NCBI RefSeq assembly: GCF_947488135.1
Contig: NZ_CANKYW010000004.1
Span: 1-64,000 of the forward strand
Direction of reading: 5' to 3'
From: an uncultured Marivita sp.
Lineage (GTDB): Bacteria; Pseudomonadota; Alphaproteobacteria; Rhodobacterales; Rhodobacteraceae
DNA: 64,000 nucleotides
The notes under the pieces are model-generated. The model did not search any database. It saw only the letters and a list, made by a program, of their open reading frames with translations, and was not told where the DNA came from. This document shows, in pieces, positions 15,974 to 56,869 of the stretch. Every line of letters begins with the position of its first letter. Within the stretch, counting starts at the first letter, position 1. The translations under genes were made by a program, and so were the position numbers.

Positions 15974-18526
15974 GTGACCAGATTCATCCTGTCATTCTTT
16001 GGGGCGATCTTCACCCTCATCACCATGGGCATCATGATGGTGGCCTTGGGCGTTGGCGGTGTCTTCTGGATGTACGGCCGCGATCTGCCCAGCCACGAAA
16101 GTCTGGCGCAGTACACGCCGCCGACGATCAGCCGGATTTATTCGGTCGAAGGCAAGATCATCGACGAATTCGCGCAGGAACGCCGCCTGTTCACTCCCGC
16201 GAACGAGATCCCCGATCTGGTCAAACAGGCTTTCATTTCGGCGGAAGACAAGAATTTCTACACCCATGACGGCTACGACCTGCGCGGTATCGCGGCAGCG
16301 GCCATCGATGCCGTGGCGTCGGGCGGTCAGGACGTGCGCGGGGCCTCCACGATCACGCAGCAGGTCATGAAGAACTTTCTGCTCTCGGGCGACCGCCGTG
16401 TCGAACGCAAGATCAAGGAGATCATCCTCGCCTCCCGGATCGAGGACACGCTGTCGAAAGACAAGATCCTTGAGCTTTATATGAACGAGATTTTCCTGGG
16501 TCAGAACTCATACGGTGTGACGGCGGCGGCGCAGACCTATTTCAACAAATCCCTGGTCGAACTGGCCCCGCACGAAGCGGCAACGCTGGCGTCGATGCCC
16601 AAGGCGCCGTCGGAATACCATCCCGTGCGCCGCAAGGACCGCCTCTTGGCGCGCCGGAACTTCGTCCTGAGGGAAATGTTCGAGAACGGCTATCTTGACG
16701 AACAAACCTATGAGACCGAAGTCGCGATGCCGCTCAGATCCGTGCAGAACGGCGACTTTGACGCCTTCCGCGAAGCGCTGCCGCCGCGCAATTATTTCAC
16801 CGATGAAATCCGTCGCCAGCTAAGCGTTGATTTCGGAGAGGGCGAGTTTTTCTCGGGCGGGTTTAGTGTCCGTGCAACTCTCGATCCGGAATTGCAAGTC
16901 GAGGCCGAGGTTGCTTTGCAACGCGCGCTGGAACTCTACGACCGCTCGCAAGGCGTGTGGCGTGGAACCGGCAAAAAGATCCCTGCCGAACAACTGAGCG
17001 ACGCTGCGACTTGGCGCGAGGCGTTGTCGACTGTCGCGGTTGCCAGGGATATCCGCTTGGAAAACCCGTGGTATCCGGCTGTGGTTCTGGAAGTCGGTAC
17101 AAACGACGCCCGCATTGGGATCGAAGGCGTCGCGGATGACGAAGACGGGCACTGGATCCCGGCCAATGACGTTCAGTGGGCCCGCAAGCGCAACAGCGAT
17201 GGGTCTCTGGGACCGAGAGGTCAGGTCGCAGGAGACCTGCTCGAAGTCGGCGATGTCGTGCATGTGCGCCGCATGACGTCGGACAGTGACGGAAGCTTTA
17301 TCCGCTGGACGCTTCGGCAGGTGCCGCAGGTTCAGGGCGCGTTCATGGCGATGGACGTGAACACCGGTCGCGTGCTCGCCATGCAGGGCGGGTTCAGCTA
17401 CCAGCATTCGGTGTTCAACCGCGCCACACAGGCACAGCGTCAGCCCGGGTCGAGCTTCAAGCCCTTCGTCTACGCGGCAGCACTGGACAGCGGCTATTCC
17501 CCGGCGACGATCGTTGTGGACGCCCCGATCGAGATCAACACGCCGCAAGGCGTTTGGCGGCCGAAAAATGCGTCCAACCGGTTCTACGGCCCGACGCCGC
17601 TGCGCACCGGGATTGAACAGTCGCGGAACCTGATGACCATTCGTCTCGCGCAGGAAGTCGGCATGGACACGGTCGCGCGCTATGCCGAGAAATTCGGTGT
17701 CTACGACAACATGGGTCGGGTTCTGGCCAACGCGCTGGGGGCCGATGAAACCACGCTTTACAAAATGGTCGCCGCTTACGCGATGTTCGCCAACGGTGGC
17801 GAACGGGTGGAGCCGACCCTGGTGGACCGCGTTCAGGACCGCTACGGCAACACCGTCTACAAGCACGATCAGCGAGTCTGTGAGGACTGCACCCTGGCCA
17901 GCCTTCAACCGGGGCAGGGACCGACCGTGCGCAGTGACCGGGAACGCGTGATGAATGCGGTGACCGCCTATCAACTGACCTCGATGATGCAGGGTGTCGT
18001 CGAACGCGGCACGGCGCGCAGCGCAGTGAACCTGCCGGTGCCGACCGCTGGCAAGACGGGCACGACCAACGACTCCAAGGACGTTTGGTTCGTCGGCTTC
18101 ACCTCGAATATCGTGGCGGGATGCTATATCGGGTTCGACCAGCCCCGCAGCCTTGGCAGCGGTGCCTCCGGCGGGGGCATGTGCGGACCGGTCTTCAATG
18201 CGTTCATGCAGAAAGCCGTCGCAAAATTCGGTGGCAGCGCCTTCCAGCCGCCTGAAAGCTGTCAGTTCATCAAGATTGACCGCAACACCGGTGCACGTCT
18301 TTCGGATGGCGCCAGTGGTGACAATGTGGTGGCGGAATGCTTCCGCGAAGGCGAAGAGCCGATCTTTGGCATCCAGTTCGATGGTGGTTTTGCGATGGGG
18401 TCCAATTTCGAGCTCTACAGCTCGAGCTCGCAGCCGTCCAAGCAAGTTACGACGTCGACGGGCGGAACGGCCACCGTCGGTCCGAAAGCGTCTTTCGGCA
18501 CTTTGAGCTCGGGCGGCCTTTACTAA
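15974..18526 (+). CDS. penicillin-binding protein 1A (bifunctional class A PBP)
   Basis: 850 residues. An N-terminal membrane anchor (about 5-33) is followed by the GT51 transglycosylase domain with catalytic Glu91 (SAEDKNFYTHDG), the STITQQ motif and GQNSYGV. An OB-like insertion follows. The transpeptidase domain has SxxK at Ser493-Lys496 (QPGSSFKPF), SxN (SRNLM) and KTG at Lys694 (AGKTGTTND). It polymerises and crosslinks peptidoglycan at the inner membrane. The start is GTG 15974 with AGGGG 6 nt upstream. The C-terminal 30 residues are a low-complexity Ser/Thr tail. Confidence 0.96.
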   Translation: MTRFILSFFGAIFTLITMGIMMVALGVGGVFWMYGRDLPSHESLAQYTPPTISRIYSVEGKIIDEFAQERRLFTPANEIPDLVKQAFISAEDKNFYTHDGYDLRGIAAAAIDAVASGGQDVRGASTITQQVMKNFLLSGDRRVERKIKEIILASRIEDTLSKDKILELYMNEIFLGQNSYGVTAAAQTYFNKSLVELAPHEAATLASMPKAPSEYHPVRRKDRLLARRNFVLREMFENGYLDEQTYETEVAMPLRSVQNGDFDAFREALPPRNYFTDEIRRQLSVDFGEGEFFSGGFSVRATLDPELQVEAEVALQRALELYDRSQGVWRGTGKKIPAEQLSDAATWREALSTVAVARDIRLENPWYPAVVLEVGTNDARIGIEGVADDEDGHWIPANDVQWARKRNSDGSLGPRGQVAGDLLEVGDVVHVRRMTSDSDGSFIRWTLRQVPQVQGAFMAMDVNTGRVLAMQGGFSYQHSVFNRATQAQRQPGSSFKPFVYAAALDSGYSPATIVVDAPIEINTPQGVWRPKNASNRFYGPTPLRTGIEQSRNLMTIRLAQEVGMDTVARYAEKFGVYDNMGRVLANALGADETTLYKMVAAYAMFANGGERVEPTLVDRVQDRYGNTVYKHDQRVCEDCTLASLQPGQGPTVRSDRERVMNAVTAYQLTSMMQGVVERGTARSAVNLPVPTAGKTGTTNDSKDVWFVGFTSNIVAGCYIGFDQPRSLGSGASGGGMCGPVFNAFMQKAVAKFGGSAFQPPESCQFIKIDRNTGARLSDGASGDNVVAECFREGEEPIFGIQFDGGFAMGSNFELYSSSSQPSKQVTTSTGGTATVGPKASFGTLSSGGLY

Positions 18527-51729: not shown

Positions 51730-56003
<4,274 letters not shown>

Positions 56004-56021
56004 CCGCTTTTGTTCTCAAAT

Positions 56022-56036
56022 GTTCTCAAAAAGTTC
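56022..56036. promoter_or_regulatory. LexA (SOS) box, alphaproteobacterial type
   Basis: GTTC (56022-56025), seven bases, GTTC (56033-56036) is a perfect match to the alphaproteobacterial LexA operator GTTC-N7-GTTC. A further GTTC at 56012-56015 lies six bases before it. The third GTTC also begins a dyad, GTTCT-TTAC-AGAAC (56033-56046). The box is 54 bp before the 44-residue ORF and 19 bp after the recG stop, so it can only serve the small gene. Confidence 0.85.
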
Positions 56037-56089
56037 TTTACAGAACGTTTCCGATATGAGAACAAAGTAGCAACAAGGAGGACATCACC

Positions 56090-56224
56090 ATGATGCAGCG
56101 GATCAAAACAACGCTTCACGCGGCCAAGGCCCAGACCAACACGGCGCTTCTTCAGGATGCGCTTGGGGCCATGTCATTGATCGTGATGCTTTTCGCGGCG
56201 CTGCACCTGCCGGTGCTTGTCTGA
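56090..56224 (+). CDS. 44-residue SOS-controlled small membrane protein
   Basis: This short ORF starts MMQRIKTTLHAAKAQTNTAL and ends with a single hydrophobic helix (about residues 26-44, AMSLIVMLFAALHLPVLV) at the very C-terminus. A strong AAGGAGG lies 8 nt before the first ATG. The amphipathic, basic N-terminal half and C-terminal membrane helix suggest a cytoplasm-facing small inner-membrane protein. The perfect LexA box upstream and the terminator downstream make a complete isolated SOS transcription unit. In Caulobacter, the LexA-controlled 29-residue membrane protein SidA blocks division by acting on FtsW; a comparable role is possible but not shown, and there is no clear sequence similarity I can assert. 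Confidence 0.8.
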   Translation: MMQRIKTTLHAAKAQTNTALLQDALGAMSLIVMLFAALHLPVLV

Positions 56225-56353
56225 CCTCGTTGCCTTTTTCTGCCTGCGTGTTTCGCCTGATTGCTCATCCGCATCCTGTCCCAACTGATGCACCTGTCCC
56301 AGAAGGTTGCCTGCCTTCAGAGCATTGACGGCCCTTAACGAACACGTCACTTT

Positions 56354-56391
56354 CTGCCGCCTTCGGACTCCGAAGTGCGGCGGTTTTTTTT
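56354..56391 (+). terminator. intrinsic terminator of the small SOS gene
   Basis: An outer stem (CTGCCGC with GCGGCGG, one bulged T) continues into CTTCGG-ACT-CCGAAG and is followed by eight T residues (56384-56391). It ends the transcript of the 44-residue gene; 56225-56353 shows no further ORF. Confidence 0.9.
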
Positions 56392-56416
56392 ATCGGATGG
56401 TAAAATTTTGGCGGGA

Positions 56417-56869
56417 TCAGGCCGATTGCGTCTCGGCCAGTTGCGCCGCCGCTTCGGACGCCGCTTCGAGCGTCAGCAGGATCGATGCGTGGCGGTTTTT
56501 GAACGCCACCGCAGGTCGCAACACTTCAAGCCCGTCGAAGGGCGCCGATGGTGTCGGACCGTCTTCCTTGAGCATCACGCGCAATTCATCGCGGGCTTGG
56601 GTGATCTGATCGCGCGTACACCCGAGGATCGCGCCGCCCACGACCGAGGCCGCCGCCTGACCCAGCGCGCAGGCTTTGACATCCTGCCCGAACGCGGCGA
56701 CCCTGCCGTCTTCCATCGTCAGATCGACCGTGACGGTGGACCCGCACAAGGGCGACCGTTTCTTGACCGTGGCGCCGGGGGCCTCCAACCGGCCGTGATG
56801 CGGAATGTCCGCCGCAAGTTCCAGAATGCGGGCGGAGTAGAGTTTGATCAGATCGGTGTCGCCGGACAT
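56417..56869 (-). CDS. NifU-like iron-sulfur scaffold domain protein
   Basis: 150 residues of the IscU/NifU N-terminal type. The expected Cys positions are represented by SPLCGSTVTVDL, the DVKACALGQAAASVV motif, and an ILGCTRDQI Cys. The third ligand region differs from canonical IscU, as in the short alphaproteobacterial branch. ATG 56869 begins the family-like sequence, with AAGGG upstream. It diverges from hisI. Its exact role relative to Suf/Isc is not clear. Confidence 0.85.
   Translation of the reverse strand: MSGDTDLIKLYSARILELAADIPHHGRLEAPGATVKKRSPLCGSTVTVDLTMEDGRVAAFGQDVKACALGQAAASVVGGAILGCTRDQITQARDELRVMLKEDGPTPSAPFDGLEVLRPAVAFKNRHASILLTLEAASEAAAQLAETQSA

Follow-up and report, generated by a model that had tools for sequence, protein, structure and literature searches.

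Downstream of recG in an uncultured Marivita sp. lies a short unit in which two LexA-type operators precede a gene for a predicted membrane protein of 44 residues, the message of which would continue into a structured 3' untranslated region (UTR) and an intrinsic terminator. The unit was examined within a window of 64,000 nucleotides (nt), which is the whole stretch analysed (contig NZ_CANKYW010000004.1, positions 1-64,000, assembly GCF_947488135.1), and by comparison across the family Rhodobacteraceae. The preferred reading, to which a probability of about 0.5 is assigned, is that of a LexA-controlled unit of Rhodobacteraceae, composed of a protein and an RNA, which acts to restrain division; the protein, the control by LexA and the RNA are supported by sequence comparison, and from these we infer the function. 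The elements of the unit, with window coordinates, are as follows.

56012 to 56036, + strand: LexA operator 1, GTTC-N6-GTTC-N7-GTTC (from the sequence and its conservation in homologues, relatives and the genus)
56037 to 56042, + strand: putative -35 element, TTTACA (suggested by conservation; TTTACA or TTGACA-like in relatives)
56060 to 56074, + strand: LexA-type operator 2, GAAC-N7-CAAC (from comparison of homologues)
56075 to 56081, + strand: Shine-Dalgarno sequence, AAGGAGG (from the sequence)
56090 to 56224, + strand: open reading frame (ORF) of 44 residues, predicted single-helix membrane protein (from comparison and structure prediction)
56237 to 56356, + strand: conserved structured RNA in the 3' UTR (from motifs, folding, covariation and a covariance model)
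about 56355 to 56391, + strand: intrinsic terminator, a GC-rich bulged stem-loop followed by T8 (from the fold; GCGGTTTTTT is present in 65 of 131 loci)

Reading of the sequence places the recG stop at 56003 and the first GTTC at 56012. The strict GTTC-N7-GTTC is GTTCTCAAAAAGTTC (56022-56036), with the extra GTTC spaced N6 upstream of it, and a sequence resembling an extended -10 element, TGAGAACAA, spans operator 2. The ORF begins with ATG at 56090 and closes with a stop codon at 56222-56224, so that the box, the AAGGAGG and the 44-codon frame are all present as the original prediction, made from this DNA alone, had described them. That prediction ended the unit at 56224, whereas the 3' UTR occupies 56225-56391 and the unit runs to about 56391. 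The intrinsic terminator it reported is indeed apparent in the fold, but falls outside the limits it set, some 130 nt beyond the stop codon, and was not listed by a simple terminator scan because its stem contains a bulge. Two features had been overlooked, namely the second box of LexA type and the structured RNA that is conserved in the 3' UTR.

A conserved small gene behind recG

The distribution of the ORF was examined in 149 genomes of the family, one per genus, in 145 of which the 3' end of recG was located. A search with the single query sequence revealed a homologue in 96 of the 149. The subsequent survey comprised 144 genomes and 147 loci, with one genome (G095) excluded owing to a weak recG match and four for want of any. 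An iterated profile search of the oriented DNA at recG returned the ORF in 132 of the 144, the loci counted being also those on which the hidden Markov model had been iterated. Five further genomes (L146, L152, L158, L171 and L173) have a borderline ORF accompanied by at least one LexA-type box, and in seven (L124, L141, L145, L161, L165, L167 and L169) the 400 nt behind recG contain no such ORF and no boxes. Within the genus the ORF is present in all 17 genomes, that of the window included. Named relatives that carry it include Ruegeria (among them Ruegeria pomeroyi), Tritonibacter, Phaeobacter, Sulfitobacter and Rhodovulum. Beyond these, a draw of 289 genomes from across the class gave eight matches, of which the four convincing ones all belong to Rhodobacteraceae, while the remaining four are weak and partial (E 0.003-0.009) and lie inside long frames elsewhere; within that draw, the protein family looks to be confined to Rhodobacteraceae.

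The pattern of substitution indicates that the ORF is a real gene under purifying selection at the protein level. Among 16 same-genus sequences of equal length, 120 pairwise comparisons give a median ratio of nonsynonymous to synonymous substitution rates (dN/dS) of 0.13, and 19, 11 and 37 sites vary at the first, second and third codon positions, respectively, of 44 each. These two results rule out a chance reading frame, and no frameshift that would speak against the gene was encountered in relatives. The homologues are about 40 residues long, although the score used to pick start codons is biased towards about 41 codons, and the uniform length of 40 is therefore partly by construction. They share the core D-A-x-G-A-x-x-L-x-V-x-L-x3-L-H-L-P, and residues M1, D23, G26 and L38 are near-invariant across 133 sequences.

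The original prediction of a single hydrophobic helix at the end of the ORF is borne out, in that the C-terminal half is hydrophobic in all 132 homologues (maximum 19-residue Kyte-Doolittle mean of at least 1.6). AlphaFold2 likewise returns a single helix over residues 4-43, with a mean predicted local distance difference test (pLDDT) score of 77.6 that falls to only about 60 over residues 1-20; the flanking charge does not settle the orientation in the membrane. Insertion of the protein in the membrane is accordingly a matter of prediction, and by that prediction it is the small single-pass protein that a SidA-type inhibitor would be. Taken together, these comparisons make it close to certain that the gene encodes a membrane protein maintained by selection. 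Searches of family databases with the window protein found only DUF334 in Pfam, which scored 12.4 bits where the cut-off is 30, and no match in NCBIfam; when the 133 homologues were compared with both collections, no family was matched by more than three members at E≤0.1, and the best E value was 0.0063.

LexA-type operators upstream of the gene

Occurrence of the bare box is of little weight, since chance alone could supply it. With 2.09 copies of GTTC-N7-GTTC expected, the window contains three, a number equalled or exceeded in 32 of 100 shuffled sequences; genome-wide, the pattern occurs 146 times and a control pattern 131 times. The two further copies in the window, at 17330-17344 on the + strand and 17615-17629 on the - strand, are not distinguishable from chance. 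It is conservation that lends the box significance. Of the 132 homologues, 125 carry a strict GTTC-N7-GTTC no more than 170 nt from the start, 112 carry GAAC-N7-(G/C)AAC, and 107 carry both, of which 97 have the two boxes offset by 38 nt; the strict GAAC-N7-GAAC form of operator 2 was found in 17 of 132. Neither box is present in strict form in four homologues (L117, L130, L140 and L154), where near matches can be discerned by eye. Of 80 loci fetched from named relatives, 79 were examined, L282 having been dropped because the contig ends before its ORF does; all 79 have box 1 and 78 have box 2, at a single fixed spacing. Within the genus, box 1 occurs in 17 of 17 genomes and box 2 in 15, and the boxes stay while the sequence that separates the putative -35 and -10 elements drifts.

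The same types of element are found at lexA and recA of the genome that contains the window, which has one match to the LexA DNA-binding domain and one to RecA. Its lexA promoter carries GAACAACAGTAGAAC, a box of the type found at the recG-downstream unit, while in the recA upstream region (G000:C4, about 222170-222260; locus L204) a degenerate GTTC-N7-GATC, GTTCGCGTTTTGATC, is followed by GAACAAGAGGTGAAC in a layout like that of the unit. The two-box layout may thus be a general design of strongly repressed SOS promoters in Rhodobacteraceae. The notion that box and ORF coincide by chance, or that the GTTC repeats serve another regulator, would accommodate the near equality of the genome-wide counts, but it does not explain why 125 of 132 homologues retain the boxes, predominantly with the same spacing, why the sequence between the putative -35 and -10 elements drifts within the genus, or why like elements occur at lexA and recA; we regard it as highly improbable.

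Ownership of the boxes by the small gene, as opposed to recG, had also been proposed, and is upheld by two genera in which the unit has been found away from recG. In one (G143, locus L174) the unit is about 4 kb from recG and on the opposite strand, and in the other (G108, locus L175) it is on another contig; both retain the two boxes with the gene, while the DNA behind recG has none. The 3' UTRs of these two units match the RNA model described below, that of G108 well (E 2.1e-6) and that of G143 weakly (E 0.0062). The position of the whole unit away from recG in the two genera suggests that it can move as a cassette. A third genome (G131), with unit and recG on different contigs, was left out of this count because the assembly is broken there. 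Conversely, the seven genomes with no ORF behind recG all lack the boxes as well over those 400 nt.

A conserved GTTC-N7-GTTC at the promoter, as expected of members of the LexA (SOS) regulon, is therefore in place. LexA would be expected to bind both boxes, and control of the unit by LexA is very probable, only a little less so than the existence of the selected membrane protein. A point to the contrary is that a simple sigma-70 scan listed no promoter at the unit, where the -10 element is poor.

A small single-helix peptide beneath LexA-type boxes is also what would be expected of a damage-induced peptide akin to TisB or DinQ, one that causes membrane depolarisation and favours dormancy, with the RNA controlling its own translation or decay. 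E. coli DinQ is a LexA-controlled toxic peptide of 27 residues with a single transmembrane segment, which depolarises the membrane and whose promoter is overlapped by two LexA operators (PMC3567139, in part); by analogy, two-operator SOS peptides can be toxins. Such a role does not sit easily with an ORF that 132 of 144 genomes retain, in most cases behind recG, and that evolves under purifying selection, and the near-invariant D23, G26 and L38 are more readily explained by a specific partner than by a pore. Moreover, neither plasmids nor phages gave a match at E≤0.05 to one 39-residue query. DinQ and TisB are, in addition, type I toxins with antisense RNAs; at the recG unit only the ORF list and the Rfam scan bear on a gene for such an RNA, and sequence kinship of the two peptides with its protein was judged via Pfam and NCBIfam only. 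A toxin of this kind is considered improbable, at perhaps half the weight given to the protein-plus-RNA unit.

A structured RNA in the 3' UTR

The 3' UTR was compared in 131 of the 132 loci, one being too short. CTGCCTG is present in 96 and CTGTCCC in 95, as opposed to one locus each on the opposite strand, and at least one of the two motifs occurs in 117 loci, whereas mononucleotide shuffles predict 11.8. In the window, the predicted fold comprises a closing stem (about 56246-56253 paired with 56340-56347) that encloses the hairpins GCATC-CUGUCCCAACU-GATGC (56271-56291) and GAAGG-UUGCCUG-CCUUC (56302-56318). The fold z score of the window UTR is -3.3 with the terminator and -1.4 without it; across the 120 of 132 UTR bodies of fitting length, with the terminator removed, the mean is -2.0.

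Alignment of the UTRs required some care. A global MAFFT alignment of 96 sequences was too gapped, with only the terminator folding, and narrower sets were used instead; the same-genus alignment, conversely, was too similar for covariation to be seen (1 of 33 pairs). In 37 sequences from the named records, compensatory changes affect eight of the nine pairs of the closing stem. For a 24-pair structure in the same sequences, 86.0% of cells pair, compared with 32-49% when the structure is slid along the alignment, and double changes occur at 16 of the 24 pairs as opposed to 7.9 in shuffles; none of 500 shuffles reached any of the observed values, a result that is inflated by the relatedness of the sequences.

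A covariance model, R1, was built from these 37 sequences, the loci of which encode proteins no more than 65% identical to the window protein (its 16 congeners are 64-95% identical to it). In the genome of the window, among the 150 of 1676 first-look candidates that were scored, the sole match at E≤1 was 56237-56356 (E 1.3e-4). In a set of 100 loci the model gave 42 matches at E≤0.01, every one on the ORF strand and 1-34 nt beyond the last sense codon. A search of Rfam with window positions 55900-56500 gave a best score of 17.5 bits, on the opposite strand, against a gathering threshold of 64. A conserved structured 3' UTR that ends in an intrinsic terminator, as would befit a DinR-like small RNA (sRNA), is thus indicated, and the comparisons render a functional structured RNA highly probable, if marginally less so than control by LexA.

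Several aspects of the RNA nevertheless weigh against the idea of a unit with two active products. R1 at E≤0.01 recovers fewer than half of the 147 loci from the family, namely 66, made up of the 42 of 100 above and 24 of a further 47, of which at least four duplicate records already in the model. The motifs are missing from 14 of 131 loci that retain the ORF. For these two reasons the RNA is judged, from sequence, to be less widespread than the protein. RNAalifold recovered only the closing stem from the 37 sequences, and hairpins 1 and 3 are paired in only 78% and 74% of cells. The motifs are predicted to be unpaired with values of 0.76 and 0.69, compared with 0.38 elsewhere in the 120 UTR bodies, albeit in a comparison without a composition control.

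It is conceivable, then, that the protein is the sole effector and that the folded 3' UTR merely stabilises or localises the messenger RNA (mRNA). The 14 loci in which the protein has outlasted the RNA motifs are in keeping with this. Specific repeated motifs that are predicted to be unpaired and are conserved across genera, on the other hand, exceed what a stabiliser would need, and we consider the explanation unlikely, and slightly more so than that of a depolarising toxin. Pairing of the loops with the Shine-Dalgarno sequence of the ORF itself was considered also, and was seen by eye not to be conserved.

ftsZ as a candidate target of the RNA

Because the loops suggested base-pairing, and because the DinR sRNA of Klebsiella pairs with the ftsZ ribosome-binding site, the 25 nt preceding the ftsZ start were examined in 30 genomes representing 27 genera (L287-L316). 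The ribosome-binding site is unusually fixed. CAGGCGG, which is complementary to CUGCCUG with one G-U pair, is present in 30 of 30; CAGGCGGACAG, which also contains GGACAG, the complement of CUGUCC, is present in 16. Among 386 background starts of the window's genome, CAGGCGG precedes two, GGACAG five and none has both, with the qualification that these starts are crude gene calls from one genome. By short-duplex energy, ftsZ falls in the best 5% of the 386 starts in 27 of the 30 genomes.

lexA was evaluated in the same way and rejected as a target. It ranked third of the 386 starts in its own genome, yet fell in the best 5% in only 2 of the 30; AGGCAGA, the complement at lexA, was likewise found in only 2 of 30 genomes, and CAGGCGG at lexA in none. 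The lexA match is attributed to chance and serves as a negative control.

The case for ftsZ is itself qualified in several respects. The gene is outside the 386 background starts, since the sequence piece ends inside ftsZ, and was added from its own locus. Energies of long duplexes do not set ftsZ apart across genomes, giving it a mean z of -1.0 in 27 genomes, compared with -0.3 for control starts; in the window's genome two of 49 background starts equal it, and in most other genomes more than 20 do so. Differences among the ftsZ sequences do not obviously track those in the loops, and the ribosome-binding site may be conserved for reasons of its own. Direct targeting of ftsZ by the RNA is accordingly regarded as doubtful, though a possibility that the sequence complementarity raises.

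Proposed mode of action and comparison with known systems

In the protein-plus-RNA reading, DNA damage would release LexA from two operators, either flanking the promoter or overlapping it, whereupon a single transcript of about 320 nt, from a start site that we infer, would be made. This would be translated into an inner-membrane protein of about 40 residues, while the 3' half of the transcript would fold so as to expose the loops CUGCCUG and CUGUCCC, with the intrinsic terminator at its end. Both products most likely would slow division during DNA repair. The protein would make lateral contact with some component of the membrane, probably one belonging to the divisome, as in the case of SidA, and the RNA would base-pair with mRNAs, for which the ftsZ ribosome-binding site is the best, if speculative, candidate. 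That the unit acts as a brake on division is given slightly less than even odds. The most elaborate version, in which one short message specifies two arms of an SOS division brake, comprising new divisome-binding proteins of about 40 residues and a new ftsZ-pairing RNA, is rather unlikely; here the loops CUGCCUG and CUGUCC would pair with CAGGCGG and GGACAG, the two halves of the ftsZ ribosome-binding site, which overlap each other.

SidA of Caulobacter is a LexA-controlled inner-membrane protein of 29 residues that binds FtsW (PMC4211646, in part). The recG-unit protein resembles it in being a small, predicted single-helix membrane protein behind alphaproteobacterial LexA boxes, but differs in its length of about 40 residues and in the conserved RNA of its 3' UTR. 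The profile gave no convincing match outside Rhodobacteraceae among the 289 genomes of the class, a comparison that did not include the SidA sequence or its gene place.

DinR of Klebsiella is an sRNA derived from the 3' end of the LexA-controlled dinI mRNA, and pairs with the ftsZ ribosome-binding site by a stretch that is specific to Klebsiella; DinI itself modulates RecA filaments (PMC10907235, in part). The recG unit would likewise carry its RNA as the 3' part of a LexA-controlled message for a small protein, although there the ftsZ ribosome-binding site is only a predicted target. DinI is soluble, whereas the recG-unit message encodes a predicted membrane peptide and its RNA spans many genera; shared sequence between the two RNAs, judged without alignment, is not expected. 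With DinQ and TisB the recG unit would share a LexA-controlled small transmembrane peptide and, in the case of DinQ, two operators. DicB and DicF of E. coli are a small protein and an sRNA of one operon that both act on division (PMC10448788, in part). Unlike the recG unit, however, theirs is a cryptic-prophage operon with a separate sRNA, and the single 39-residue query noted above found no phage homologue of the recG-unit protein at E≤0.05.

A limited literature search found no description of the gene or RNA downstream of recG, although an earlier mention in studies of LexA regulons (Proteobacteria, Rhodobacter capsulatus) is possible. The term recG is absent from the main text of a study of Dinoroseobacter LexA sites (PMC6473078), and a term search of the main texts of two sRNA surveys (PMC4809877 and PMC5107571) similarly gave no mention. 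Nor did the limited search reveal an SOS division inhibitor described for Rhodobacteraceae. The protein and RNA families, while of known general kinds, are apparently new, and the structured RNA is arguably the more novel half of the unit.

The unit offers protein and RNA families for which searches of Pfam, NCBIfam and Rfam gave no fitting entry, and represents a widespread candidate for an SOS division inhibitor, one open to testing in species that can be cultured. Were the RNA half to function, the unit would provide a conserved case, independent of Klebsiella DinR, of one SOS message acting as both protein and RNA; and should both arms prove to act on division as envisaged, a single derepression event would stop division at the level of protein and mRNA alike.
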